A DNA stretch of 50,662 nt from an uncultured Rhodospirillales bacterium (lineage in GTDB: Bacteria; Pseudomonadota; Alphaproteobacteria; Acetobacterales; Acetobacteraceae). Made by a program: the position numbers and the translations under genes. The first letter of the stretch is position 1. Each line of letters opens with the position of its first letter. The stretch spans positions 1 through 50,662 of the forward strand of contig CAIYSR010000175.1 of NCBI GenBank assembly GCA_903928895.1, in the 5' to 3' direction. The notes beneath the pieces were generated by a model that saw only the letters and a program-made list of their open reading frames with translations, searched no databases and had not been told where the DNA came from. Of this stretch, positions 1,704 through 41,531 are shown one piece after another.

Positions 1704-1760
1704 GGCAGTCTCCGCGCATGCGATGCGGCGGGACTTTCCTAGCGGCTACCCCGACCGTCA

Positions 1761-1791
1761 AGGCGCCCTCCCGCATCACGGGAGGGCGCCT
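1761..1791. terminator. strong GC hairpin
   Basis: Perfect 13-bp inverted repeat (arms 1761-1773 and 1779-1791, AGGCGCCCTCCCG) with a 5-nt loop, in the gap between the amidohydrolase start and the solute-binding protein stop. No T-run follows on either strand, so it may be a transcript-end stabiliser rather than a classical intrinsic terminator. Confidence 0.6.
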
Positions 1792-1796
1792 CTGGA

Positions 1797-1896
1797 GCGT
1801 GATCGTTTGAGGCCGACGGGTTAGAAAACGTGAATCACGCGACAAAACAAAGAGCTAGAGCATTATTGGAACGCCTATCAGTTCCGATAATGCTCT
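1797..1896 (+). repeat. 100-bp dispersed repeat, family A copy 1
   Basis: First of two 100-base copies; the other is 8452-8551 in reverse orientation, about 86% identical by eye. It has two foldable parts. GCGTGAT (1797-1803) can pair with ATCACGC (1834-1840). A 16-bp stem (1857-1872 with 1881-1896) closes an 8-nt loop starting GCCTATC. Between copies the second stem differs at several positions but pairing is kept by matching changes on both arms. Here the element lies just after the stop of the solute-binding protein gene, so that gene's transcript reads it antisense. Confidence 0.85.
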
Positions 1897-1902
1897 AAAA
1901 GA

Positions 1903-3483
1903 TTAGACCTTCTTCACGCCCCAGAATACCGGGCTGCCCGACTTCACCACATCGGTGACGTTCGCCCGATAGGCCGTCGGCGTCGTCCACTCGCCGGTGG
2001 GGAAGAACGGGATGTGCTCGAGGGCCAGGTGCTGCATGTCCGCACACACCGCCTTCTGGGCGGCGAGGTCCGGCGCCTCGAACCACTTCTCGCGCAGCGC
2101 CTCCATTTCCGCGTCCACCGGCCAGCCGAACCAGCCGTCCTTGCCGTTGCCGCGCAGCGGCACGTGCCCGCCGGGGTTGGACACCGACAGCCCGCCCCAG
2201 GTGGTGCAGAAGGCGTTCCAGCCGCCCTGCTCCGGCGGCTCATGCTTGGCGCGGCGCGTGACCAGCGTGCCCCAATCCATCAGCGTGTACTGGGAGTTGA
2301 TCCCGATCGCCTTGAACATCGCATCCGTGACCAGCGCCATGGCGGTGAGCTGCGGCTGGTCGGACGGGGACATCAGCGTCACCGGTTCGCCCTTGTAGCC
2401 GCTTTCGGCCACCATCTTCTTGGCCTTGGCGAGGTCGCGCTTGCCGATCAGCAGCTCCATATCCACCGTCGAGGCCATCGGCGAGCCGGTGACGAAGATG
2501 CCGGCCTTCTTGCCGAACTCGTCCTTGAAGTCGCCGAGCACGGCGTTCATGAACTCGTCCTGGTCGACGGCGGCCTGCACCGCCTTGAGCAGCTTGGGAT
2601 TGTTGAACGGCGGCAGTTCGTGGTTGACGCCGATGACGCCGAGGGCGGCGAGCGGGCTGATCACTTCGACGCGGACGTTCTTGTCCTTGCGCAACAGCGG
2701 CAGCTGGTCGAACAGCGGGTTCTCCCACCAGTCGACCTCGCCGCGCTGCAGGGCCGACAGGCTGGTGGCGGGATCGGGGATGATTTTCCACTCGACCCGA
2801 TCGAAATTCACCACCTTGCCGCCGGCGAGGTAGCTCGGCTTGCCCTCGCGGGGGACGTATTTTTCGTTCTTCGCGTAGGCCGCCGAGGCGCCGGAGACCC
2901 ATTCGTCCTTCAGGAACCGGAACGGGCCGCTGCCGATGTATTCGCTGATCTGGGTGAAGGCGTCGGTCTTGGCGATGCGCTCGGGCATGATGAAGCAGTT
3001 GTTGTAGCCCAGCGCGTAGCGCATCAGCGGGTATGGTTTCTTCAGCCGGATGACGATGGTCTTGTCATCGGGGGCCGAGATCGAGTCGAGCTGGCCCATC
3101 ATGCGCTGGCCGAACCCGTCGCGCTTGGCCCAGCGGGTGATCGACATGACGCAATCCTTGGCCAGCACCTTTTCGCCGTCGGTGAAGGCCAGCCCGTCGC
3201 GCAGCACCATCTTCCAGGTCAGCCCGTCGGCCGAGACCTCGTCGCCGGCGAGCATTTGCAGATGCGGCATCAGCTTCTCGTCGATGCCGTAGAGCGTGTC
3301 CCACACCATGGCGCCGTGCAGCCAGGCCACCGTCGCCGTCGTCCAGATCGGGTCGGGATTGGCGAGATTGGCCTGCGGGATATAGCGCAGCACCTTTGCC
3401 GTGCCCTGCGCCAGGGCAGGGCGGGCCAGAGAGGTTGCCAGCGCGGCACCGCCGCCGGCCAGAACGCCACGTCGCTTGATCAT
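1903..3483 (-). CDS. ABC transporter solute-binding protein, family 5, Tat-exported
   Basis: Periplasmic binding protein of the peptide/nickel/opine class (SBP_bac_5), 526 residues. The N-terminus reads MIKRRGVLAGG followed by a hydrophobic stretch and ARPALAQ, which looks like a twin-arginine signal peptide with cleavage after Ala-Leu-Ala. Family blocks include LRDGLAFTDGEKVLAKD near residue 110 and FNNPKLLKAVQAAVDQ near 305. An in-frame upstream extension of 64 codons exists, but the ATG at 3483 has AAGGGGAAG just before it and starts the signal peptide. No permease or ATPase gene is nearby, so it must work with a transporter encoded elsewhere. It is divergent from the MlrC-type gene with a 91-base shared promoter region. 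The ligand is unknown. Confidence 0.9.
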   Translation of the reverse strand: MIKRRGVLAGGGAALATSLARPALAQGTAKVLRYIPQANLANPDPIWTTATVAWLHGAMVWDTLYGIDEKLMPHLQMLAGDEVSADGLTWKMVLRDGLAFTDGEKVLAKDCVMSITRWAKRDGFGQRMMGQLDSISAPDDKTIVIRLKKPYPLMRYALGYNNCFIMPERIAKTDAFTQISEYIGSGPFRFLKDEWVSGASAAYAKNEKYVPREGKPSYLAGGKVVNFDRVEWKIIPDPATSLSALQRGEVDWWENPLFDQLPLLRKDKNVRVEVISPLAALGVIGVNHELPPFNNPKLLKAVQAAVDQDEFMNAVLGDFKDEFGKKAGIFVTGSPMASTVDMELLIGKRDLAKAKKMVAESGYKGEPVTLMSPSDQPQLTAMALVTDAMFKAIGINSQYTLMDWGTLVTRRAKHEPPEQGGWNAFCTTWGGLSVSNPGGHVPLRGNGKDGWFGWPVDAEMEALREKWFEAPDLAAQKAVCADMQHLALEHIPFFPTGEWTTPTAYRANVTDVVKSGSPVFWGVKKV

Positions 3484-3574
3484 CAAACTTCCCCTTGTTG
3501 TTGCCGCGACCGGGCTTCCGTTTGCCGCCCGCCGGTGACACGATGACGCAATTCCGGTGCCAAGGAGAAGCCCC

Positions 3575-5074
3575 ATGCGTCTGCTGCTCGCCACCATGTC
3601 GCACGAGACCAACACGTTCTCCCCAGTGCCCACGAAGCTGGCACGCTTCTGCCGCGACGGCACCACGTTGCTCAAAGGCGAGGCGGCGGCCGATTTCTAC
3701 CGCAATACCGGCACCTGCATGGGCGGCTATCTTCAGGTGGCGGCGGAGGCGGGGGCTGCGATCACGGTGGCGGTGTGTGCGAGCGCGCCACCGTCCGGCC
3801 GGGTCGATGCCGAAGCGTTCGAACTTTTCTGCGGTTTGATCACCGACGCGGTCGCCGCCGGGGGCTGGGACGGTATCATGCTGGACCTGCACGGGGCGAT
3901 GGCGGTCGAAACCTTCGAGGACGGCGAGGGCGAACTGCTGCGGCGCATCCGGGCGATCGACCGCGCGACGCCGATCTGCGTCGCCTACGACATGCATGCC
4001 AATGTGTTTGCCGACATGGTGGTCAACGCCGATGTCGTGGCGGGCTACCACACCTATCCGCATATCGACATGAAGGAGACCGCGATCCGGGCCGGCCGGG
4101 CGCTGCTTGGCGTGATCGCCGGGAAGCTCAAGCCGAGCACCGCCTGGGGCGGCGTGCCGATGCTGCCGCATGTGATGGCGCAGGGCACCCATATGTTCCC
4201 CAACAAGGACCTCCAGGCCAAGTGCGCGGCCTGGGAAGCCAGCGGGCGTGCCGTGGCGGCGTCGCTGTTCGTCGGCTTTCCCCATGCCGACGTCCCGATG
4301 GCGGGACTGTCGGCCGTCGTGGTCACCGACAACAACCCGGCCGATGCGCAGGCGATGGTGGAAGAGCTGCTCGCCTTCGCCTGGAACGCGCGGGAGGGCT
4401 TCACCTTTCAGATCGAGCCGCTGGAGGAGAGCGTGGCGCGGGCGAAGATGCTGGGCGAGGCGGGGCCCGGCGTGGTGCTGCTCGACCATTTCGACAATTG
4501 CGCCTCGGGCGGCACGATGGATACCACCGACGTGCTGCGCGAAATCATCCGCCAGGAGCTCGATGACGTCGTGTTCTTCGGCATCTACGACCCCGACGCG
4601 GTCAAGCAGGCCGCCGGCGCGGGGATCGGCCAGGAGGTCGAGCTTGAGATCGGCGCCAAGCTCGACATGCCGGCGCTGCAATCGGGCAGCCGGCCGTTGC
4701 GTGTGGCGGGCAAGGTGCGGACCCTTTCGGCCGGCTACTACCGCGCCACCGGCGGGCTGAGCCCCGGACTCCAGGTCTATATGGGCACCACCGCGGTGCT
4801 GGATACCGGGCGCGTGCAGATCGTGCTGCTGAGCCGCCATATCGAGCCGACGGCGCAGGAGATGATGCGCATCCTCGGCATCGACCCGGCGGCCAAGCGC
4901 TTCATCGCGATCAAGAGCCGGGTCCACTGGCGCGCCGATCTCGGCAAGCTTGCGCGCGAAATCGTCGAATGCGCGGGGGTGGGGGTCTGCACGTCGGACT
5001 ACGGGCAACTCACGTTCCGCAATGTGCGCCGCCCGATCTATCCGCTGGACCCGGAAATGACGTTGAACGGATAG
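3575..5074 (+). CDS. M81 family metallopeptidase (MlrC / microcystinase C-like)
   Basis: A 499-residue member of the MlrC family, named for the last enzyme of microcystin degradation; most family members have unknown substrates and occur next to peptide or amino-acid uptake genes. The start MRLLLATMSHETNTFSP is diagnostic. Conserved metal-site blocks are LDLHGAM near residue 107, YDMHANV near 138 and YHTYPHID near 158, with ASGGTMDTTDVLR in the C-terminal half. The ATG at 3575 is preceded by AAGGAG with 7-nt spacing; an upstream GTG at 3557 was not used. It is divergent from a solute-binding protein gene, an arrangement that suggests hydrolysis of the compound that protein captures. The stop codon is part of a T-rich terminator repeat. 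Confidence 0.88.
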   Translation: MRLLLATMSHETNTFSPVPTKLARFCRDGTTLLKGEAAADFYRNTGTCMGGYLQVAAEAGAAITVAVCASAPPSGRVDAEAFELFCGLITDAVAAGGWDGIMLDLHGAMAVETFEDGEGELLRRIRAIDRATPICVAYDMHANVFADMVVNADVVAGYHTYPHIDMKETAIRAGRALLGVIAGKLKPSTAWGGVPMLPHVMAQGTHMFPNKDLQAKCAAWEASGRAVAASLFVGFPHADVPMAGLSAVVVTDNNPADAQAMVEELLAFAWNAREGFTFQIEPLEESVARAKMLGEAGPGVVLLDHFDNCASGGTMDTTDVLREIIRQELDDVVFFGIYDPDAVKQAAGAGIGQEVELEIGAKLDMPALQSGSRPLRVAGKVRTLSAGYYRATGGLSPGLQVYMGTTAVLDTGRVQIVLLSRHIEPTAQEMMRILGIDPAAKRFIAIKSRVHWRADLGKLAREIVECAGVGVCTSDYGQLTFRNVRRPIYPLDPEMTLNG

Positions 5075-5076
5075 AA

Positions 5077-5141
5077 GTTTTTTGCTTCTTTTTTTCAAAA
5101 AAGAAGGCCTTCTTTTTTTGGAAAAAAAGAAGCAAAAAAAC
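5077..5141. terminator. T/A-rich palindromic bidirectional terminator, copy 2
   Basis: Near-perfect palindrome of about 65 bases centred at 5107/5108, built from GCTTCTTTTTTTC and its complement, with T-runs on one side and A-runs on the other. It differs from copy 1 at the stem centre (GAAGG/CCTTC instead of GAAAGC/GCTTTC), and both arms changed together. It separates the MlrC-type gene from the Rieske gene. Confidence 0.8.
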
Positions 5142-5165
5142 TGCATCCGTTAAGGGGAGCCGACC

Positions 5166-6272
5166 ATGAACGATTTCGCGCCCGTTGCCATCCATGCCGA
5201 TCCCGCCTTGTCGGATACGCTGCCGGGGTGGGTCTATACCTCGGAGGCGCATCTCGCGGTCGAGCGGGAGAAGCTGTTCTTCAAGACCTGGCATTATGCC
5301 GGGGCCACGGACGAGCTGCCCAATGCCGGCGATTATCTCACCGCGCGGCTGCTGGACCAGTCGATCCTGGTGATGCGCGGGCGCGACGGCGGGCTGCGCG
5401 CGTTCTACAATGTCTGCCAGCACCGCGCGCACGAGCTGCTCGAGGGCAGCGGCAATGCGCGCGTGGTGACCTGCCCCTATCACGCCTGGTCGTACCATGA
5501 TGACGGCAGCCTGCGCACCGCGCGCGGGGCCGAGCGGCAGCCGTTCTTCGATCCCGACCGGTTCTGTCTCAAGCCGGTGCGGATCGAGGTGTTCGCCGGG
5601 CGGTTCATCTTCTTCAACCTCGATCCCGCCGCCGCCTCGCTGGCGGAGACGGCGGGCGAGCTCGCCGCCGATATCATCGCCGAAACGCCAGATTTTGCTG
5701 CCTTGCGGCCGACCACGTCGAACCCGCCGCGGCCGATGCAGGCGAACTGGAAGGTAGTGCTCGACAATTTCCACGAGTGCTACCACTGCGGCCCGGCCCA
5801 CCCCGCCTTCGCCGACCTGATCGACATGGCGTGCTACCGCACCACGACGACGGGGCTGTGGTCGAAGCAGAAGGGCCAACTCGCCCGGGCGGACAACAAG
5901 GCCTATCCGGTGGCGGCTCAGGCCAACCACATGACCGTCTTCTGGTTCCTGTGGCCCACCACGACGTTCGGCTTCCTGCCGGGCAGCCCGTCCTTGTCGG
6001 TGACATCGACGATGCCGCTGACCGCCGGCACCAGCGTGCGGCGGTTTCACAACTTCGCCTTGCCCGGCGCCCCCGTCGATGAGGCCAAGCGCGTCTATGG
6101 GCAGACCGTGCTCGGGCCGGAGGACGTGGCGATCTGCGAGTCGGTCCAGCGCGGTCTCAACTCGCGCGGCTATACCGCCGGGCGTTTCGTGCATGACCCC
6201 GAGGGCGGCCAGACGACGGAAGCGGCGGTTCACCATTTCCATCGTCTGTATGCCGAAGCCATGGAATTCTGA
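5166..6272 (+). CDS. Rieske non-heme iron oxygenase, alpha subunit
   Basis: Terminal oxygenase of an aromatic-ring-hydroxylating or quaternary-amine-type Rieske system, 368 residues. The Rieske 2Fe-2S site is Cys84-X-His86 and Cys103-X2-His106 (NVCQHRAHE and CPYHAW). The mononuclear iron site follows with NWKVVLDNFHECYH near residues 194-207, where His207 and His212 are the likely ligands. The length and sequence flavour resemble glycine-betaine/carnitine-type monooxygenase alpha subunits more than naphthalene-type dioxygenases, but that is a judgement by eye. AAGGGGAG precedes the ATG by 8 bases. No reductase or beta subunit gene is adjacent, so electrons must come from a partner encoded elsewhere. 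Cytoplasmic. Confidence 0.9.
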   Translation: MNDFAPVAIHADPALSDTLPGWVYTSEAHLAVEREKLFFKTWHYAGATDELPNAGDYLTARLLDQSILVMRGRDGGLRAFYNVCQHRAHELLEGSGNARVVTCPYHAWSYHDDGSLRTARGAERQPFFDPDRFCLKPVRIEVFAGRFIFFNLDPAAASLAETAGELAADIIAETPDFAALRPTTSNPPRPMQANWKVVLDNFHECYHCGPAHPAFADLIDMACYRTTTTGLWSKQKGQLARADNKAYPVAAQANHMTVFWFLWPTTTFGFLPGSPSLSVTSTMPLTAGTSVRRFHNFALPGAPVDEAKRVYGQTVLGPEDVAICESVQRGLNSRGYTAGRFVHDPEGGQTTEAAVHHFHRLYAEAMEF

Positions 6273-6302
6273 CTGCGCTCGTAGAGAAAAAGGAAAACCT
6301 AT

Positions 6303-6318
6303 ACGGAACGTCTTCCGT
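6303..6318. promoter_or_regulatory. small palindrome upstream of the FNR-like gene
   Basis: ACGGAA-CGTC-TTCCGT, a 6-bp inverted repeat with a 4-nt spacer in the 122-base gap between the Rieske stop and the regulator start. It is too short to be a good terminator and has no T-run. It could be an operator for either gene; nothing else in the sequence identifies the binder. It is not an FNR box (TTGAT-N4-ATCAA), and none was seen here. Confidence 0.3.
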
Positions 6319-6394
6319 CCTGCGTATAAGTACCCATTCGAATTTCACGGGTTTATGCTAACGTTGGTCTCTCCGATTGCGTATCCTCACCGCC

Positions 6395-7216
6395 ATGGAC
6401 ACGAAATGGTCCAGTAGCCGAATTGGTGGGGGGCGACGGGAAACCGTCGCGGGCCGAATGCGCGATATCCGCGAGACGGCGATGCGGCCGGCGCAGCCCG
6501 GAGCGATGCGGCTGGAGACGGGGTGCGACCAATGCGGCGCGCGGGCCAGCAACGTGTGCAGCACCCTCGCCTTCAAGGACCTCGACCGCCTCGCCCGCAT
6601 CGCGGAGCCGATGATTTTCGCGCCGGGGCAGAGTTTCATCCGCGAGAGCTCGCCGGCGGAGCATTTCTTCAATATCACCTCCGGCACCGCCCGGCTGTTC
6701 AAGATGCTGGCGGACGGCAGGCAGCAGATCACCGGATTCGCCGGCGAGGGGCATTTTCTCGGCCTCGCCGTGCCGACCGCCTATGCCTATGGCGCCGAAG
6801 CGGTCGACACGGTGCGCCTGTGCCGCTATCCGCGCCAGCGCCTGATGCGCCTGCTCGCCGAATTTCCGGCGATGGAGCGGCGCATGCTGGAGGAGGTCTC
6901 CAACGAACTGGTTGCGGCTCAGGAGCAGATGCTGCTGCTCGGCCGCAAGAACGCGCGCGAGCGCATCGCCTCCTTCCTGGTGCGCCGCATGGCGATCACG
7001 CCGCTGCGCCATGGCGTCGCGCTGCCGCGGATCGCCATGGTGCGACTGCCGATGGCGCGCCGCGACATCGGCGACTATCTCGGGATGACCATCGAGACCG
7101 TCAGCCGGACCCTGGGGACCATGAAGCGGGAGGGGATGATCGCCATCCCGGACCCCGCCCGGATCGTCATCCAGCGCCCCGCCGCGCTGCTCGCGCTGGC
7201 CAACGGCCTGGCCTGA
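6395..7216 (+). CDS. FNR/Crp-family oxygen-responsive transcription regulator
   Basis: Cytoplasmic regulator, about 273 residues from the ATG at 6395. The N-terminal cysteines Cys44-X2-Cys47-X7-Cys55 and a central Cys143 (VRLCRYP) match the 4Fe-4S ligand set of alphaproteobacterial FnrN/FnrL proteins, so it is probably an oxygen sensor. A cyclic-nucleotide-binding-like beta barrel spans about 75-150. The winged helix at about 222-245 carries ETVSR, whose Glu, Ser and Arg match the FNR recognition helix, so the site should be TTGAT-N4-ATCAA. The start is uncertain: a TTG at 6377 and ATGs at 6458 and 6482 are in frame and no clean ribosome site marks any of them. It probably controls genes outside the window. 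Confidence 0.88.
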   Translation: MDTKWSSSRIGGGRRETVAGRMRDIRETAMRPAQPGAMRLETGCDQCGARASNVCSTLAFKDLDRLARIAEPMIFAPGQSFIRESSPAEHFFNITSGTARLFKMLADGRQQITGFAGEGHFLGLAVPTAYAYGAEAVDTVRLCRYPRQRLMRLLAEFPAMERRMLEEVSNELVAAQEQMLLLGRKNARERIASFLVRRMAITPLRHGVALPRIAMVRLPMARRDIGDYLGMTIETVSRTLGTMKREGMIAIPDPARIVIQRPAALLALANGLA

Positions 7217-7232
7217 GGCAAGGCGTGCGGGG

Positions 7233-8432
7233 TCACGCCTTGAGCGACAACTCCTGCGCGACGACGCCGGCCCAGTAGGCCACGCCGAGCGGGATCATCG
7301 CGTCGTTGAAGTTGAAATGCGGCGTGTGCACGCCGTGGAAACTGCCGTCGGGATTGACGCCGTTGCCGATGAACATGAAGGCGCCGGGCTTCTCCTTCAT
7401 CATGAAGGCGAAATCCTCGCCGCCGGTGCGCGGGGCGGCCTTGGCATCGACATTGGCGGTGCCCACCACGGTTGACGCGGCGGCGGCGGCGACCTCGGTC
7501 TGCTCGGCCTGGTTGACCAGCGGCTCCGCCACCCAGTCGAACATCAGTTCCGCCGTGGCGCCGTGCAGTTTCGCCAGGCCATGCGCGAGTTCGGTGATGC
7601 GGCTCTCGATGATGTCCTTCACCGGCGGGTTGAAGTAGCGCGCGGTGCCGCCGACCACGATTTCGGCGGGCATGACGTTGCAGGATTCGAGCGCCCCGCC
7701 ACCAATATGGCCGACGCTGATGACCGCGGTGTCGAAGGCCGAGATGTTGCGCCCGACGATGGCTTGCAGGCCGAGCACGAAATGGGCCTGGACGATGGAG
7801 AGGTCGGTCGACAAATGGGGCGAGCTGCCGCCGTGGCCGCCGGTGCCGCGGAAGCGGGCATGGAAGATGCAGCCGCCGGCCATGAAGCCGCCGGTGTTGA
7901 TGGCGAATTGGCCGACCGCGGTGCCGGGCATGCAATGCAGCCCGTAGATGGCATCGCAGGGGAAGCGCTCGAACAGCCCGTCGCGCAGCATGGCGAGAGC
8001 GCCGCCGCGGCCCTCCTCGGCGGGCTGGAAGATGAGCTGGACGGTGCCGCTGAAATCGCGATGCGCCGCCAGATGGCGGGCGGCGCCGAGGAGCATGGTG
8101 GTGTGCCCGTCATGGCCGCAGGCATGCATCCGGCCGGTGGCGGTGGAGGCGTAGGGCAGGCCGGTCTGCTCGACGATGGCGAGCGCATCCATGTCGGCGC
8201 GCAGGCCGATCGAGCGCTGGCCGGGCAGCTTGCCCTTGATAGTGGCGACAATGCCGGTGCCGCCGATGCCGGCGACATGCTCGATCCCCCATTCCGTCAG
8301 CTTGGCCGCGACCAGGGCCGAGGTGCGGTGCTCCTCGAGCCCGAGTTCGGGATGGGCGTGGATGTCGCGGCGGATGGCGACGAGCTCGTCGAGATGGGGC
8401 GCGATGGCCTCGATCACATTGGTATGCGGCAT
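7233..8432 (-). CDS. M20 family amidohydrolase (hippurate hydrolase / N-acyl amino acid amidohydrolase type)
   Basis: Zinc-dependent amidohydrolase, 399 residues, of the M20D group that includes hippuricase, IAA-amino-acid hydrolase and carboxypeptidase Ss1. Motifs are HPELGLEEHRTS near residue 30, MHACGHDGHTTM near 100 (metal ligands), FQPAEEGRGGA near 135 (general base Glu) and GGEDFAFM near 345. It cleaves an acyl group from an amino acid in the cytoplasm; the acyl chain cannot be predicted. The ATG at 8432 has AGGAAA upstream. A longer frame reaching 8477 arises only because the adjacent dispersed repeat happens to be open. The idnD-like gene upstream on the same strand could share a transcript, but the repeat lies between. 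Confidence 0.88.
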   Translation of the reverse strand: MPHTNVIEAIAPHLDELVAIRRDIHAHPELGLEEHRTSALVAAKLTEWGIEHVAGIGGTGIVATIKGKLPGQRSIGLRADMDALAIVEQTGLPYASTATGRMHACGHDGHTTMLLGAARHLAAHRDFSGTVQLIFQPAEEGRGGALAMLRDGLFERFPCDAIYGLHCMPGTAVGQFAINTGGFMAGGCIFHARFRGTGGHGGSSPHLSTDLSIVQAHFVLGLQAIVGRNISAFDTAVISVGHIGGGALESCNVMPAEIVVGGTARYFNPPVKDIIESRITELAHGLAKLHGATAELMFDWVAEPLVNQAEQTEVAAAAASTVVGTANVDAKAAPRTGGEDFAFMMKEKPGAFMFIGNGVNPDGSFHGVHTPHFNFNDAMIPLGVAYWAGVVAQELSLKA

Positions 8433-8451
8433 GATGGTTTCCTGTCGAACT

Positions 8452-8551
8452 GGAGCTTCATCGGAACAGATAGGCATTCCGATGAAGCTCCATCTCTTTG
8501 TTTTGTCGCGTGATTCACGTTTTCCGACCGATCGGCCTCAAACGATCACGC
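8452..8551 (-). repeat. 100-bp dispersed repeat, family A copy 2
   Basis: Inverted copy of the 1797-1896 element, also exactly 100 bases. It starts at the stop codon of the idnD-like gene (base 8551) and its hairpin (8452-8467 with 8476-8491) ends 19 bases before the M20 start codon. The minus-strand transcript reads this copy sense, the reverse of copy 1. Stem changes relative to copy 1 keep pairing: three A-T/G-C or A-T/T-A swaps change both arms. Confidence 0.85.
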
Positions 8552-9579
8552 TAGAACGCGATCTGCACCTTCATCGCCCGCGTGCGGTCGGTCGCAAGGT
8601 CGAACGCCCGGATGGCGTGATCGAGGGGGATAATTTCGGTCAGCAGCGCGGCGACGTCAATCGCGTTGCGCGCCAGCAGTTCCACCGCCATGGCGAATTC
8701 GGCGTGGAAGCGGAAGGTGCCGCGCAGGGTGATCTCCTTGGCCACCACCAGGTTCAGCGGCACCGCGGTCTCCGCCCCGCCATTGCCGACCTGCACCAGG
8801 GTTCCGCCGGGGCGGAGGGCGGCGATGGCGGAGGCCACCGCGAGGCCGCTGCCGGAGGCCTCGAAGGCCACGTCGAAATGCCCCTTGTCGCGGCCGTACT
8901 CGGCCATCGCGGCGCTGTCGGCGCCGACATTGACCGTCCGGTCCGCCGCCAGCCGGCGGGCCAGGGCGAGGGGTTGATCGAGCAGATCGGTCACCACCAC
9001 CTCGCGCGCCCCGGCGTGGCGGGCGACCATGGCGCAGAGCATCCCGATCGGTCCGGCGCCGGTGACCAGGACGCGGCGGCCGAGCAGGGCGCCGGCCTGG
9101 CGCACCGCATGCAGGCAGACCGACAGCGGCTCGGCGAAGGCGGCCCGCTCGGACGGCATCTCGGCCTTGACCGCCTGGCTCTCGTGGCAGACCAGTTCCT
9201 CGCGGAAGCCGCCCTGGACATGGGGGCTGCGCATGGCGCTGCCGAAAAACCGCATGTCGAGGCAGTGCTGCTGGGCGCCATCGAGGCAGAATTTGCAGAT
9301 GTTGCAGGGCAGGCTCGGGTTGACCGCCACTTTGTCGCCCGGCCGCACCCGCGTTACCGCGGCGCCGGCGGCGACGATGGTGCCGGCGATCTCGTGGCCC
9401 AGCACCATCGGCTGCTGCACCCGCACCGTGCCGAAGCCGCCGTGATGGTAGTAGTGGAGATCCGAGCCGCAGATGCCGCCATGGTGGATCCGCACGGTGA
9501 CGTCGTGCGGTCCTGCCGCGCCGAGCGCCATCTCCTCGACGCGCAGCACATGCGGTGGGTGAATGACGACGGCTTTCAT
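8551..9579 (-). CDS. zinc-dependent alcohol dehydrogenase, L-idonate 5-dehydrogenase-like
   Basis: Medium-chain dehydrogenase, 342 residues, predicted to oxidise a sugar acid or polyol with NAD(P)+ in the cytoplasm. The N-terminus GICGSDLHYYHHGG is typical of L-idonate 5-dehydrogenases; its Cys and the GHE motif bind catalytic zinc. The structural zinc lobe is Cys92-X2-Cys95-X2-Cys98-X7-Cys106. The cofactor fold begins VLVTGAGPIGMLCA near residue 170, and VTDLLDQPLALA follows the second strand. GAGGAGGGA precedes the ATG. L-idonate specificity is an assignment by resemblance; sorbitol or threonine-type relatives are alternatives. The gene is divergent from the patatin gene. Confidence 0.82.
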   Translation of the reverse strand: MKAVVIHPPHVLRVEEMALGAAGPHDVTVRIHHGGICGSDLHYYHHGGFGTVRVQQPMVLGHEIAGTIVAAGAAVTRVRPGDKVAVNPSLPCNICKFCLDGAQQHCLDMRFFGSAMRSPHVQGGFREELVCHESQAVKAEMPSERAAFAEPLSVCLHAVRQAGALLGRRVLVTGAGPIGMLCAMVARHAGAREVVVTDLLDQPLALARRLAADRTVNVGADSAAMAEYGRDKGHFDVAFEASGSGLAVASAIAALRPGGTLVQVGNGGAETAVPLNLVVAKEITLRGTFRFHAEFAMAVELLARNAIDVAALLTEIIPLDHAIRAFDLATDRTRAMKVQIAF

Positions 9580-22043: not shown

Positions 22044-22166
22044 GGGATTGGCCTCATGAGGGGCCGGGCTGCGTCCCGGAACACCGGCATCATGAGGAGC
22101 AAAGCTTTATGCGGCGTTACCGCCGCGGCCCAGGCGGCGCGATCCTAGACGATCGCGCCGGCCGGC

Positions 22167-22273
22167 CTAAGCAAACCCTCTCAGCTTTGCGCTCTTGCTG
22201 AATGCTAAGCTGGCTTTCGCCTGCAAGATGTTTGCAAATGCATCCATGGGCTGTCCTGCGAAAGCCTGCTTAG
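22167..22273. repeat. ~105-bp dispersed repeat, family B copy 1
   Basis: The stretch from CTAAGCAAACC to GCCTGCTTAG is repeated at 26274-26377 at roughly 88% identity by eye. The ends CTAAGCA and TGCTTAG are inverted. It is rich in GATGTTTGCAAATGCATCC and GCTCTTGCTGAA. Read on the minus strand it begins at the stop codon of metC, so the gene's TAA is inside the repeat. Confidence 0.85.
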
Positions 22274-24290: not shown

Positions 24291-24326
24291 GCCACTCTCC
24301 CTGAATAAATTCGCAAAAGTTTTTTG

Positions 24327-24348
24327 CTTCTTTTTTCCAAAAAAGAAG
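24327..24348. terminator. T-rich hairpin terminator, copy 3
   Basis: CTTCTTTTTT (24327-24336) pairs with AAAAAAGAAG (24339-24348) over a 2-nt loop, preceded by AAAAGTTTTTTG. It is a half-length version of the palindromes at the contig start and near 5.1 kb. It lies in the 75-base gap between the AlaX stop and the sseA start and probably ends the alanyl-tRNA editing transcript. Confidence 0.75.
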
Positions 24349-24365
24349 ATCTTGCTTTCTTTCTG

Positions 24366-26232: not shown

Positions 26233-26273
26233 GGCATCGCCTTGTTCCGCGCCGCCCGGGCGCGCCCGCGCCC

Positions 26274-26377
26274 AAGCAAACCCCCTCAGGTCAGCGCTCT
26301 TGCTGAAAGCTAAGCTGGCTATCGCCTGCACGATGTTTGCAAATGCATCCGTGGTCCGTCCCGCGAAACCTGCTTAG
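26274..26377. repeat. ~105-bp dispersed repeat, family B copy 2
   Basis: Second copy of the 22167-22273 repeat, same orientation. Its end TGCTTAG overlaps the stop codon of glxR (TAA on the minus strand at 26374-26376). Both copies therefore sit at the 3' end of a minus-strand gene and contribute its stop. Confidence 0.85.
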
Positions 26378-33531: not shown

Positions 33532-34407
33532 CTATCCTTCCGGCTGAATGGTCACCGTCAGGGCCCCGATCTTCTCGATCGTGGCGGTGACCTGATCGCC
33601 CACGCTCAGGAACGTGCCCTTGGGCGCGCCCACTCCGGCCGGCGTGCCGGTCAGGATCACGTCGCCGGGGTCCAGCGTCATGATCCGCGAGGCGGTGGCG
33701 ATCTGCTCGGCGATGCTGAAGATCATCCCGCCGGTCCGCGCGTTCTGCTTGGTCTCCCCGTTCACGCTCAGCGACAGCGCGAGGTCCATGGCATCGCCGA
33801 TCTCGTCGGCCGGGATCAGGCGCGGACCCATCGGGCAGCAGGTGTCGTGGCCTTTGCCGGCGACCCAGTCGAGCTTGTAGAACGTCTCCGGCGCCCGGTT
33901 GTGGTCGCGCGCGGAGAAATCGATCGCCACCGTGTAGGCCGCGACATGATCGAGCGCATCCGCCACCGTCACATTGCGCGCGGTCTTGCCGATCACCAGC
34001 GCCAGCTCGACCTCCCAGTCCATCGCATTTGTGCCGATCGGCTTGCGCACGGTGGCGCCGGGCCCGACCACGGCGTTGCGCGGCGGCTTGAAGAAGAAGA
34101 ACAGGCGCTGCGCCTCCTTGCGCAAATCCTGCACCCCCATCTCGGCAGAGTGGTCGTAGTAATTGGCTCCGGCGCAAAGGATCTTGCCGGGGAACTGGAG
34201 CGGTGCCAGCACTTCGAGATCATCCGCCAACGCCGGCGCCGTGGGTTTCGCCGCCCGCAGATGCGCCACCCAGCGCGGCCAGTCCTCGAACAGCGCGGCA
34301 ACGGTGGCGGGGGCGCCGAGGTCGGTCAGCCGGTAGGTCTTGCCGTCGATGGTGGCACAGCCGATGGCGGCGCCATCGAGCCTGAGGGTCTGAAGCGCGA
34401 GGGTCAT
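33532..34407 (-). CDS. fumarylacetoacetate hydrolase family protein
   Basis: A 291-residue FAH-fold hydrolase, divalent metal dependent; the family cleaves C-C bonds or decarboxylates small acids. Motifs are CAGANYYDHSAEMG near 85, the metal Glu in EVELALVIGK near 140, VAIDFSARDHN near 165 and DVILTGTPAGVG near 240. The ATG at 34407 overlaps the upstream solute-binding protein stop as ATGA, so translation is coupled. It is the last gene of a run with two solute-binding proteins, an SDR and a thioesterase, and could act on the imported compound. Confidence 0.88.
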   Translation of the reverse strand: MTLALQTLRLDGAAIGCATIDGKTYRLTDLGAPATVAALFEDWPRWVAHLRAAKPTAPALADDLEVLAPLQFPGKILCAGANYYDHSAEMGVQDLRKEAQRLFFFFKPPRNAVVGPGATVRKPIGTNAMDWEVELALVIGKTARNVTVADALDHVAAYTVAIDFSARDHNRAPETFYKLDWVAGKGHDTCCPMGPRLIPADEIGDAMDLALSLSVNGETKQNARTGGMIFSIAEQIATASRIMTLDPGDVILTGTPAGVGAPKGTFLSVGDQVTATIEKIGALTVTIQPEG

Positions 34408-35921
34408 TTCCACTTTGCCAGATAGAAGCGGGGGAGTTCGTCGGGATAGGGCTTGAAGTCGAGCTGCCGGGAGAAGCCGTAGGTGGTCACCGAGGTGTAG
34501 AGCGGCAGGATATGGGCGTTCTCGCTGATGCGCTTGAGCGCGGCGCTGTAGGCGAGCTTGCGCTGGGCCGGATCGGTGCTGGTGCCGCCTGATTTGACCA
34601 GGGCGGTGATTTCGGCGTCACGGCTCTGGTCGGTGTTGGTGCCGCCGAAGAAGTAGGGAAGGATCGCCGAGGCGTCGTTGATCGAGTAGCTGCCCCAGTT
34701 GCCCAATGTCAGCGGCGCGCTGCCGTCCAGCGTGCGGCGCAGCGCGGCCGACACCTGGAGATGGCTGATCCGGGCATTGATGCCGACGGCGCGCAGATAG
34801 TTCTGCACCGCGCCTTCGACCGGGGCGATGAAGTAGGAGACGATCTCGGTCTCGAACCCGTTGGGATAGCCGGCCTCGGCCAGCAGCGCCTTGGCCTTGG
34901 CGGGATCGTAGTCGTAATGGACCGCGACCGAGGCGTCGCAGCCGAACTGGGACGGGTAGCAGGCGGTATCCGGCACCCGCGCGCCGCCCTGGATCAGCTT
35001 CTCCGCGATGGTCTTGCGGTCGATCGCATGGGCGATCGCCTGACGGACCTTGACCTTGGTCATCGGATTGTCCGCCCCGGTGCGCCCGGCGCCGTCCATG
35101 CCGAGGAAGTTCACCCGCATGGTCTCGGCCCGCATCCCCTGGAGATTGGGCATGCGGGCGACATTTTCGAAGTTGTCGGGGATGAAGTTCCAGGTCCAGT
35201 CGGCCTTGTTGCCGATCAGCTCGTTCAGCGCGGTGGTGGCGTCGGTCACCTCATGGACGACAAGACGGCGGATCGCCGGGCGGCCTTTGGGACTGTCCTT
35301 GTAGTAGCCCTCGTAGCGCTCCATCTCGATCCACGAGACGCCATCGACCTTGGCTATCCGGTACGGCCCGGCGCCGATGGGCTGGCGCGAGTAGCCGTCC
35401 TTGCCCATCTTCTCGCGGCTCGCCTTGGGCCAGATCGGCGTGACCATCGACAGATATTCGGTCGCCGCCGGAAACACCTGCTTGAGCTTCACCCGCACCG
35501 TGTAGTCATCGACCTTCTCGGCCCCCGCCATCCACGCATAGTTGGACGGCACCGAAACCAGCTTGTCCGTCAGGATGCCGTTCAACGTATAGACCACGTC
35601 ATCGGCGCTGAACGGCGTGCCGTCGTGGAACGTCACGCCGCGGCGCAGGGCGAACTCGATGGTGGTGTCGTCGACATATTTCCACGCCGTCGCCAGCGCG
35701 CCCTTGACCGTGAACGTCTCGGGATCGCGGGCGAGCAGGCCGTCAAAAGCCTGGGTGTGCATCACCAGCCCGGCGCGCAGCTCGTTGTAGTAGGGGTCGA
35801 CATCGGGGATCTGGTCCCAGATCACGACCCGCAGCGTGTCCGCCGATTTCTGAGCCGCCGCCGGTCCAGCCATGAGGCCAAGGGCGGCGACGGCGCCAAA
35901 CAGGATGCTGCGCGTGCTCAT
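34404..35921 (-). CDS. ABC transporter solute-binding protein, family 5 (first of a tandem pair)
   Basis: A 505-residue periplasmic dipeptide/oligopeptide-type binding protein. A Sec signal peptide ends in PAAAQ (about residue 24). Family blocks are GVTFHDGTPFSADDVVYTLN near 95-115, and WNFIPDNFENVARMPNL near 260 is shared with its neighbour. It is about 60% identical by eye to the next gene (35926-37449). The stop of the paralogue and this start are 4 bases apart, and the WK codons before that stop (TGGAAG) serve as the ribosome site. No permease genes are present, and the ligand is unknown. Confidence 0.9.
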   Translation of the reverse strand: MSTRSILFGAVAALGLMAGPAAAQKSADTLRVVIWDQIPDVDPYYNELRAGLVMHTQAFDGLLARDPETFTVKGALATAWKYVDDTTIEFALRRGVTFHDGTPFSADDVVYTLNGILTDKLVSVPSNYAWMAGAEKVDDYTVRVKLKQVFPAATEYLSMVTPIWPKASREKMGKDGYSRQPIGAGPYRIAKVDGVSWIEMERYEGYYKDSPKGRPAIRRLVVHEVTDATTALNELIGNKADWTWNFIPDNFENVARMPNLQGMRAETMRVNFLGMDGAGRTGADNPMTKVKVRQAIAHAIDRKTIAEKLIQGGARVPDTACYPSQFGCDASVAVHYDYDPAKAKALLAEAGYPNGFETEIVSYFIAPVEGAVQNYLRAVGINARISHLQVSAALRRTLDGSAPLTLGNWGSYSINDASAILPYFFGGTNTDQSRDAEITALVKSGGTSTDPAQRKLAYSAALKRISENAHILPLYTSVTTYGFSRQLDFKPYPDELPRFYLAKWK

Positions 35922-35925
35922 CGGA

Positions 35926-37449
35926 TTACTTCCACGTCGCCATGTAGAAGCGCGGCAGCTCGTCCGGATAGGGCTTGAAGTTGAGCTGCTTGCTGACGCC
36001 GTAGGTGACGACCGAGTTGAACAGCGGCAGGAACATGACGTTCTCGGTGATCATCTTGATCGCGGCCGAGTAGTTCTTGCGGCGCTCGTCGGGGTTGATG
36101 CTGGAGCCGCCAGCATCGACCAGCTTCTGCAGCTCGGGATTGCGGATGTAATCCTGGGTGCCGCCGTTGACGAAGGCCGGCAGGTAGGCCGAGGCGTCGT
36201 TGATGGAGTAGCTGCCCCAGTTCGAAAGCACCATCGGGTTGCTCCCCTCGATCCCGCGCTGGATGACCGCGCTGACCTGGAGCTGCGAGATCTTGGCCTT
36301 GATGCCGACCGCGGCGAGGTAGCCCTGGGTGGCGGCGGCGAATTGCGGCAGCAGGAAGGTGACCAGCTCGGTCTCGAAGCCATTGGGGTAGCCGGCCTCG
36401 GCGAGCAGCGCCTTGGCCTTGGCGGGGTCGTAGTCGTAGCGCACGGCGGCGGCCTGGTCGCAGCCGAACTGGGTGGGGAAGCAGGGCGTGTCGATCTGGC
36501 GCGAGCCACCTTTCATCAGGTTCTTGGCCATGTCGCCACGGTTGATGGCGTGGGCGATGGCCTGCCGCACCTTGACCTTGGTCAGCGGGTTGTCGGCCCC
36601 GGTGCGACCGGCGACGTCGAGCCCGATATGGTTGACGCGCATCGCCTCTCCCCAGATCGCGTTGAGGTTGGGCATGCGGGCGACATTCTCGAAATTGTCG
36701 GGGATGAAGTTCCAGGTCCAATCGGCCTTGCCGCCGAGCAATTCGTTCAGCGCCGTCGTGCTGTCCGTCACCTCGCGCAGGATCAGCTTGCGGATCGCCG
36801 GCTTCGGCTTGGGGCTGTCGGCGTAGTAGTCCTCGAAGCGCTCGAACTCGATCTGGCTGACCCCGTCAACCCTGGTGATCTTGTACGGCCCGGCGCCGAC
36901 CGGGGCCTTGGAATAGGCCTCGACGCCGACGCGCTCGCGATAGGCTTTCGGCATCACCGGCAGCACCATCGCGATATACTCGATGGCGGCAGGAAAAATG
37001 CGCTTGAGCTTCACCCGCACGGTGAAATCGTCGACCTTCTCGGCCCCCTGCATCCAGGAATAGTTGGACGGCACCGAGAGCAGCTTGTCGGTCAGGATCG
37101 AATTGAAGGTATAGACCACGTCATCGGCGCTGAACGGGCTGCCGTCGTGGAACTTCACCCCCTTGCGCAGGGTGAATTCAAGCGTGGTGTCGTCAGTGTA
37201 TTTCCACGAGGTCGCCAGCAGCGGCTTGATCGCGAAGGTTTCCGGGTCGCGATAGACCAGCCCGTCCCAGGCGTGATGGGAGATGACGATCCCGTCGCGG
37301 ATCTGGTTGTAGTAGGGCGTGATGTCCGGGACCTGGGTGTAGTTCACCGCGCGCAGGGTGTCGGCCGATTTCTGCGCCTGCGCCGGGGCGGCGATGGCAA
37401 GGGCGGCGAGGGCGGTGGCGGCGGCGAACAGCTTCGCGTGGCGGATCAT
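35926..37449 (-). CDS. ABC transporter solute-binding protein, family 5 (second of a tandem pair)
   Basis: A 507-residue paralogue of the adjacent solute-binding protein, beginning with a Sec signal peptide (MIRHAKLFAAATALAALAIA, cleaved near AQAQ). The shared tail YPDELPRFYMATWK closes both proteins. The ATG at 37449 has GGGAGC 8 bases upstream; in-frame codons farther up have no leader. Two binding proteins feeding one transporter would broaden ligand range, but permease genes are absent from the window. The SDR gene lies 100 bases upstream in the same direction. Confidence 0.9.
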   Translation of the reverse strand: MIRHAKLFAAATALAALAIAAPAQAQKSADTLRAVNYTQVPDITPYYNQIRDGIVISHHAWDGLVYRDPETFAIKPLLATSWKYTDDTTLEFTLRKGVKFHDGSPFSADDVVYTFNSILTDKLLSVPSNYSWMQGAEKVDDFTVRVKLKRIFPAAIEYIAMVLPVMPKAYRERVGVEAYSKAPVGAGPYKITRVDGVSQIEFERFEDYYADSPKPKPAIRKLILREVTDSTTALNELLGGKADWTWNFIPDNFENVARMPNLNAIWGEAMRVNHIGLDVAGRTGADNPLTKVKVRQAIAHAINRGDMAKNLMKGGSRQIDTPCFPTQFGCDQAAAVRYDYDPAKAKALLAEAGYPNGFETELVTFLLPQFAAATQGYLAAVGIKAKISQLQVSAVIQRGIEGSNPMVLSNWGSYSINDASAYLPAFVNGGTQDYIRNPELQKLVDAGGSSINPDERRKNYSAAIKMITENVMFLPLFNSVVTYGVSKQLNFKPYPDELPRFYMATWK

Positions 37450-41298: not shown

Positions 41299-41313
41299 AG
41301 GCAGGCGGAAGAA

Positions 41314-41337
41314 GTTCTTTTTGTGAACAAAAAGAAC
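41314..41337. terminator. T-rich hairpin terminator, copy 4
   Basis: GTTCTTTTTGT (41314-41324) pairs with ACAAAAAGAAC (41327-41337) across a 2-nt loop, 16 bases after the stop of the response regulator. It is followed by CAAAAAAAC. It probably ends the copC-copD transcript. Confidence 0.7.
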
Positions 41338-41423
41338 CAAAAAAACTTTTTGCCCGTTTCTTGCCTCCTGCGCGGCTCGTCACATCCGTCCTCGCCGCAG
41401 GCAACAACGGGTAAAGTTTTTTT

Positions 41424-41449
41424 GCTTCTTTTTTTCCAAAAAAAGAAGC
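41424..41449. terminator. T-rich hairpin terminator, copy 5
   Basis: GCTTCTTTTTTT (41424-41435) pairs with AAAAAAAGAAGC (41438-41449), preceded by AACGGGTAAAGTTTTTTT. Together with copy 4 it makes an outward-pointing pair around about 75 bases, in the 233-base gap before the omega-aminotransferase gene. Confidence 0.75.
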
Positions 41450-41531
41450 CCTTCCTACCCTTGACTTGCTTCACTGCCACCCTGGGGTGTAACCTCTCGC
41501 GCTTCGACAGTCCCCGAACGAGGTCCCCGAC

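Follow-up and report, generated by a model that had tools for sequence, protein, structure and literature searches.

The window considered here is the whole of contig CAIYSR010000175.1, 50,662 nucleotides of DNA from an uncultured Rhodospirillales bacterium of the Acetobacteraceae (assembly GCA_903928895.1), and our subject is a two-hairpin intergenic repeat that it carries twice. Copy 1 occupies positions 1793-1897 on the plus strand and copy 2 positions 8451-8553 on the minus strand, extents that are counted with the TA ends and amount to 103 to 105 bp each. A repeat finder placed the pair at 1796-1895 and 8453-8552, 87% complementary, and both copies announced by an earlier, sequence-only reading at about 86% identity were thereby recovered. 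Copy 1 is placed between a G+C-rich hairpin (1759-1795) and the stop codon of a solute-binding-protein gene (TAA, 1903-1905), to which it is antisense and from which 5 bases separate it. Copy 2 is sense to its flanking genes; one end overlaps the TAG codon (8551-8553) of a dehydrogenase gene, and the other lies 18 bases before the ATG at 8432. The opposite orientations to transcription and the gene positions given in the sequence-only reading are therefore correct. The dehydrogenase gene has L-idonate 5-dehydrogenase as its top NCBIfam match, with a score under that model's cut-off. The features are as follows, where model R1 is a model built from 71 aligned copies of the repeat, fold included.

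1759-1795, minus strand: G+C-rich hairpin just past copy 1, identified by eye; the terminator scan calls nothing there
1793-1897, plus strand: copy 1 of the two-hairpin repeat, ending in TG on the left and TA on the right; 118.1 bits with model R1
1797-1840, plus strand: hairpin 1 of copy 1, from the fold and pair counts; stems P1 1797-1803/1834-1840, P2 1804-1808/1826-1830 and P3 1811-1814/1819-1822
1831-1833, plus strand: TGA bulge of hairpin 1 of copy 1
1832-1836, plus strand: GAATC (GANTC, the CcrM site) of copy 1, at the TGA bulge and the 3' arm of P1
1841-1855, plus strand: unpaired, conserved linker of copy 1
1856-1897, plus strand: hairpin 2 of copy 1; 17-bp stem 1856-1872/1881-1897, loop 1873-1880, variable triplet 1862-1864/1889-1891
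1903-3675, minus strand: family 5 extracellular solute-binding protein gene, its stop codon facing copy 1
7233-8432, minus strand: M20-family amidohydrolase gene, downstream of copy 2
8451-8553, minus strand: copy 2 of the two-hairpin repeat, sense to the flanking genes; 114.6 bits with model R1
8451-8492, minus strand: hairpin 2 of copy 2; stem 8476-8492/8451-8467, loop 8468-8475, variable triplet 8484-8486/8457-8459
8493-8507, minus strand: unpaired, conserved linker of copy 2
8508-8551, minus strand: hairpin 1 of copy 2, laid out as in copy 1, from the fold and pair counts
8512-8516, minus strand: GAATC of copy 2, placed as in copy 1
8551-8553, minus strand: TAG codon that terminates the dehydrogenase gene and coincides with the left end of copy 2
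8551-9579, minus strand: zinc-binding alcohol-dehydrogenase-type gene, upstream of copy 2, from a profile search

Each copy folds into a bulged hairpin 1, a conserved unpaired linker, and a hairpin 2. Hairpin 1 consists of a 7-bp P1, the three-base TGA bulge, a 5-bp P2, an internal loop, and a 4-bp P3. In the sense of the repeat, the folds of both copies beat all 200 dinucleotide shuffles (z of −8.69 for copy 1 and −7.61 for copy 2), and folds of the opposite strand are weaker (−4.23 and −5.10). The sequence-only reading had described what is hairpin 2, which is confirmed, with a stem of 17 bp rather than 16, and had left the bulged hairpin 1 unmentioned. Its three pairs altered on both arms are present at pair 2 (A-T to G-C), pair 7 (A-T to T-A), and pair 9 (T-A to C-G), as are its two shifts between wobble and Watson-Crick pairing (pairs 12 and 17); the loop that it called unchanged is identical over GCCTATC and differs at the eighth base, A in one copy and T in the other. 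When the same number of substitutions per arm of hairpin 2 was placed at random, three or more compensated double changes arose with a probability of about 0.0013, and all 17 pairs stayed intact with a probability of about 0.00009.

The repeat is numerous in the host genome and in relatives. A 102-bp query found 29 places scoring at least 50 bits in the host assembly (5.57 Mb, 191 contigs), both window copies counted. To build model R1, 111 core matches were reduced to 77 having the standard 42-base hairpin 2 and at most four unpaired positions, and six more rows were dropped by eye to leave the 71 copies (20 from the host, 51 from other genomes), a selection that favors core conservation and hairpin 2 pairing. 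Model R1 matches 26 of 26 scored candidates of the host genome. With the host counted each time, it also matches in at least 91 of 150 genomes of the family sample, at least 29 of 289 of the class sample, and at least 22 of 249 of the phylum sample, lower bounds that reflect the 26, 13, and 15 candidates scored per genome, respectively. All matches in the phylum sample fall within the class; the genomes listed there all belong to that class, with a further 207 unlisted, and this sample therefore cannot serve as an outgroup. A 23-base core is matched exactly in 28 stretches, each bearing the title of an Acetobacteraceae or Rhodospirillales metagenome assembly, in a search from which records very near the host genome were possibly excluded. 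Outside the family, R1 also matches two-hairpin elements elsewhere in the class, many with TAGAG...CTCTAG ends. Among plasmids, the host copy found no match, and a relative from the class level matched nine records with no feature annotated. The copies that the sequence-only reading proposed to seek genome-wide and in relatives thus exist, and their pairing is preserved in the host genome and across the class.

Parts and compounds of the element were seen as well. By eye, hairpin 2 stands alone at C153:4270 and C37:11039, and hairpin 1 plus linker at C21 and C150:61652; in one genome (G011 C137, L104), hairpin 1 alone forms tandem copies. Head-to-tail tandems of the element with one common CTAG lie at L009 (G000 C134:11703-11907) and at L079 and L100 (G022 C163). 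Ends of the type GTTCCGATnnnGCTCTA flank a different middle at L034 (G000 C28:15689-15775), L038 (C129:23840), and L039 (C140:1505).

Across the 71 copies, 92.7% of 2,343 cells are paired, versus 74.0% after shuffling; 26 of 33 pairs show double-sided changes, and the covariation score is 0.529, versus 0.186 in shuffled and at most 0.098 in slid controls. The pairing scheme scored here comes from folding the window copies, which are themselves among the 71 rows. We also used a custom tree-aware test, in which parsimony substitutions on a FastTree tree were redistributed over branches in 60 replicates and 5,253 column pairs were compared. Four pairs reached E < 0.05, all of them structural and three of them forming the hairpin 2 triplet; the other 29 structural pairs fell short of it. 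In the 20 host copies, the triplet averages 3.33 pair types, and 59 of its 60 cells are Watson-Crick; the rest of the hairpin 2 stem averages 1.36 types, with 250 of 280 cells so paired. The triplet (alignment columns 72-74/99-101) is hypervariable yet exactly complementary in 19 of the 20.

One explanation for such compensated stems could be that the repeat is inert and that one arm is copied from the other (quasi-palindrome correction), with no selection involved. The many triplet types in near-perfect pairing are what concerted copying would give. However, such copying would tend to erase the three-base bulge of hairpin 1, which persists across genera and is retained while the flanking stems differ between them, and the limitation of exchange to three positions is left without explanation. 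We regard arm copying as an unlikely account of the repeat as a whole.

Alternatively, the repeat could work in 3' untranslated regions as structured RNA (an mRNA stabilizer, an RNase site, or an attenuator), with the compensation reflecting selection on the transcript. The strong covariation around a conserved asymmetric TGA bulge and the better folding of the repeat-sense strand would suit this explanation, and so would the left ends of 22 of 68 copies, which lie at the stop of a same-strand gene, so that these copies are probably transcribed. Some repeats of Sinorhizobium meliloti appear in RNA data, according to the excerpted text of PMC2873474. However, the two window copies are oppositely oriented to transcription, and pairs broken by a change on one side only bear no clear mark of RNA pairing: within genomes, G-T departures number 37 events (48 cells), A-C departures 30 events (33 cells), and other mismatches 43 events, so that G-U is not clearly above A-C. 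The raw G-T excess owes much to one pair (columns 22-31), which is G-U in 25 of 71 rows. We therefore rejected strand polarity as a mark of RNA selection. Nor is a terminator-like signal present; a terminator or promoter role was rejected because none is called at either copy, in agreement with the earlier statement that the element is not a simple directional terminator. No Rfam family matches at its gathering score in the window, and the eight matches around copy 1 at E ≤ 5 are all under gathering scores. An RNA element seems to us quite improbable. With no clear strand preference, there is no support for the sequence-only claim that selection kept the structure in the resident window copies, or for their acting as RNA.

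The differences between copies have another possible source. Host copies with the same triplet are slightly closer elsewhere in the element (86.6% versus 82.9% identity; permutation P = 0.03), and the window copies therefore seem to owe some of their differences to separate source subfamilies. The data fit a scheme in which source subfamilies with an intact fold would seed resident copies that later decay; decay of this kind predicts no strand preference, which matches the counts of one-sided departures.

Evidence for mobility comes from sites that are empty in relatives. Window copy 2 is absent from the relative G004, where the aligned codon of the dehydrogenase gene is a TAG stop and 28 bases separate it from the next start. 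At the same site, G003 has another, A/T-rich insert, and G002 and G001 have other DNA after the gene; by eye, the codon aligned to the dehydrogenase stop is TAG in G004, G003, and G001 and TAA in G002. Another copy in the host genome, at C145:26377, lies between convergent genes and is absent in G003. The homologous flanks there are 6 bases apart in G003 and 110 in the host; the gene pair has a common TTAA stop in G003, and in the host the two genes stop separately, at a TAG on either end of the element. The spot holds other inserts in G004 and G002. This empty site implies that at least TA, and at most CTAG, was duplicated, a range left by flanks only about 77 to 85% identical between the relatives and the host. 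Together, the two empty sites indicate insertion, and the sequence-only suggestion of a mobile palindromic unit gains support from them.

The ends of the element coincide with stop codons. Flanks were long enough to judge 68 copies, and in 28 of these a gene stop codon lies at an element end (22 left, 10 right, 4 both), with stops counted within −1 to +2 bases of the end and genes predicted from open frames and codon usage only; the offset is exactly 0 in 19 of the 22 cases on the left and in all 10 on the right. Where a copy has such a stop within 60 bases, it is at the end in 22 of 25 cases on the left and 10 of 22 on the right. By the same rule, the background in the window is 13 gene stops at 334 TAG sites and 8 at 53 YTAR sites. 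A looser count over all 111 core matches gives 27 left stops exactly at the end. The left end carries TA in 48 of 71 copies, and the right end does so in 58; 42 have it at both. All six reading frames are closed in 48 of the 71.

Spread of a REP/REPIN-type repeat by a RAYT (IS200/IS605-like Y1) transposase, which the separable hairpin modules (hairpin 2 alone, hairpin 1 plus linker, and hairpin 1 in tandem in G011) would fit, is very hard to credit and was rejected, since PF01797 (Y1_Tnp) was found in none of 10 element-rich genomes by a search that was positive in 5 of 14 controls, including Caulobacter, and since target duplication is not generally expected of the Y1 mechanism.

A different transposase is suggested by the target. 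The IS5-type transposase domain PF13340 has matches in 13 of 14 genomes, above the cut-off in 12. We compared 66 stretches with IS5-type transposases (30 loci drawn from part of the PF13340 matches, plus 36 further loci), some of which overlap or are cut by contig ends. TA-bounded inverted ends were found in 6 of the 66; these elements measure 836 to 868 bp, and one, from the same genus, starts with GAGCGCG. At L287 (region G074 C44:34335-34544), one of these IS5-type elements, with ends GGTCCTGTGGACA, abuts the end of a two-hairpin repeat on a common CTA(G). A further inverted pair, at L263 and with TAA duplicated, was seen in one of two end scans only, and a repeat-like end is present at L266. 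In Paracoccus, the target duplications of IS427-group elements are mostly 2 bp long, as excerpted from PMC3281130. By common target only, we infer that an IS5/IS427-type transposase is the first candidate mobilizer, a link held at that level because none of the 66 stretches carries the ends of the repeat.

The bulge contains a potential methylation site. GANTC is present there in 69 of 71 aligned copies and 18 of 20 host copies, counts to be read with the knowledge that the core used to pick copies itself contains GANTC; the window background is 0.93 per kb. A second GANTC, in the P3 loop, occurs in 27 of the 71 copies, namely, 27 of the 51 from other genomes and none of the 20 from the host. 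Among 23 inspected matches outside the family, 18 have TGANTC or its complement and 21 have any GANTC, figures that call for caution since model R1 itself favors the motif. The RAMA domain scores above its cut-off in eight of eight genomes and, among 14 controls, in Caulobacter alone. The methylase of the host genome matches NF050803 over 347 of 350 positions at 617.7 bits, under the cut-off of 830 bits, and contains PF01555 and PF18755; on these profiles, the host genome encodes a CcrM-like methylase. That CcrM methylation of GANTC might control the activity of the element is a guess.

We consider it probable that both window repeats are copies of a nonautonomous mobile element of the CIR (CcrM-associated intergenic repeat) kind. 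A transposase acting in trans would insert the element at the TA of a YTAR-like site (CTAG, TTAG, CTAA, or TTAA) and duplicate the target. In G+C-rich genes, TAG and TAA stop codons would be safe landing sites, because the TAG end of the element itself would restore the stop, and other insertions within genes would be lost. The fold would be kept since the propagating lineage needs the hairpin DNA or its transcript, and resident copies would receive their compensated stems from distinct sources, later decaying with no strand preference. A more elaborate version, in which a passenger targets stop codons, copies arm from arm during transposition with the triplet as the footprint, and has its activity tied by the bulge GANTC to CcrM methylation and the cell cycle, is speculative and, we think, unlikely.

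The case for an insertion element of the CIR kind has several points against it. Empty sites number only two, with flanks about 77 to 85% identical, and precise loss instead of insertion may have produced them. For window copy 1, no empty site was found, the relatives carrying other DNA beyond the gene, and for the copy at C145:43892 there is none because the flanks are not colinear in relatives. TA stands at both ends in only 9 of 20 host copies. GANTC in the host copies is at the bulge and in the terminal loop of 0 of 20, where the excerpted text of PMC2229807 puts the CIR site. None of the 66 IS5-type stretches is an autonomous element with the ends of the repeat, and 29 of 33 structural pairs fell short of significance in the tree-aware test.

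Other repeats lie nearby. A second family occurs in the window at 22165-22263 and 26270-26368, the copies being 88% identical; elsewhere its tail runs into two-hairpin copies at L020, L033, and L035, two of these junctions being a TAG, as if the two families inserted at each other's ends. A/T-rich intergenic hairpin repeats lie at 1-89, 5063-5151, 24317-24361, and 41307-41459, with copies 93 to 95% identical elsewhere in the host genome; similar A/T-rich hairpins are found in G003 and G004 at sites that hold the two-hairpin repeat in the host. The region 34401-37210 contains paralogous stretches, 70 to 77% identical at a spacing of 1,522 bases, which are probably duplicated genes.

In a search of open-license literature by title or the start of the abstract, we found no publication naming this Acetobacteraceae element. 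The covariance model is a means of annotating such repeats, which otherwise contaminate small-RNA predictions; in S. meliloti, 56% of 186 small-RNA candidates were in intergenic regions with repeats (excerpt of PMC2573895). The RIME and the AB and C motifs of Sinorhizobium, described in the same excerpt, are likewise repeated intergenic palindromes in alphaproteobacteria whose sequence and structure are conserved, a comparison made by description. REP sequences with GTAG or CGTC tags (excerpt of PMC3733652) resemble the present element in being short palindromic intergenic repeats, and CGTC repeats are reported there as missing in the Acetobacteraceae; they differ in that the hosts of the present element are without the Y1 transposase in 10 genomes. 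The MITE-like RUP, ERIC, and Correia elements, as excerpted in PMC2229807, are similar in their length of about 100 to 150 bp, TA ends, stable folds, and nonautonomous nature, and RUP is tied to IS630-Spn1; in these elements, the 5' end pairs with the 3' end, whereas the present element has two arms and a linker.

The closest likeness in description is to the CIR elements (Delihas 2007, PMC2229807), which according to the excerpt are about 110 bp and made of two arms, each a long inverted repeat, with a linker between them; they end in TA and share a conserved GANTC. They are reported from Caulobacter, Brucella, and other alphaproteobacteria and, in that text, were not found in genes; their mobility was unresolved, their target duplication was marked unknown, and more information on movement was called for. 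The convergent-gene empty site and the stop-codon coincidence offer a testable answer on movement, insertion at TA/YTAR with duplication, which would admit an element between tightly packed genes and leave the genes unbroken. The present repeat differs from CIR in that its named relatives are Acetobacteraceae or Rhodospirillales assemblies, in the bulge position of its GANTC (with the P3-loop site as a second one outside the host), and in the target duplication indicated at one site here. At about 105 bp, in multiple copies, with two arms and a linker, mostly TA ends, GANTC, and a CcrM-like methylase in its host, it resembles CIR as the review describes them, and the two are grouped together here on their agreement in size, architecture, TA ends, and GANTC with the excerpt of PMC2229807.

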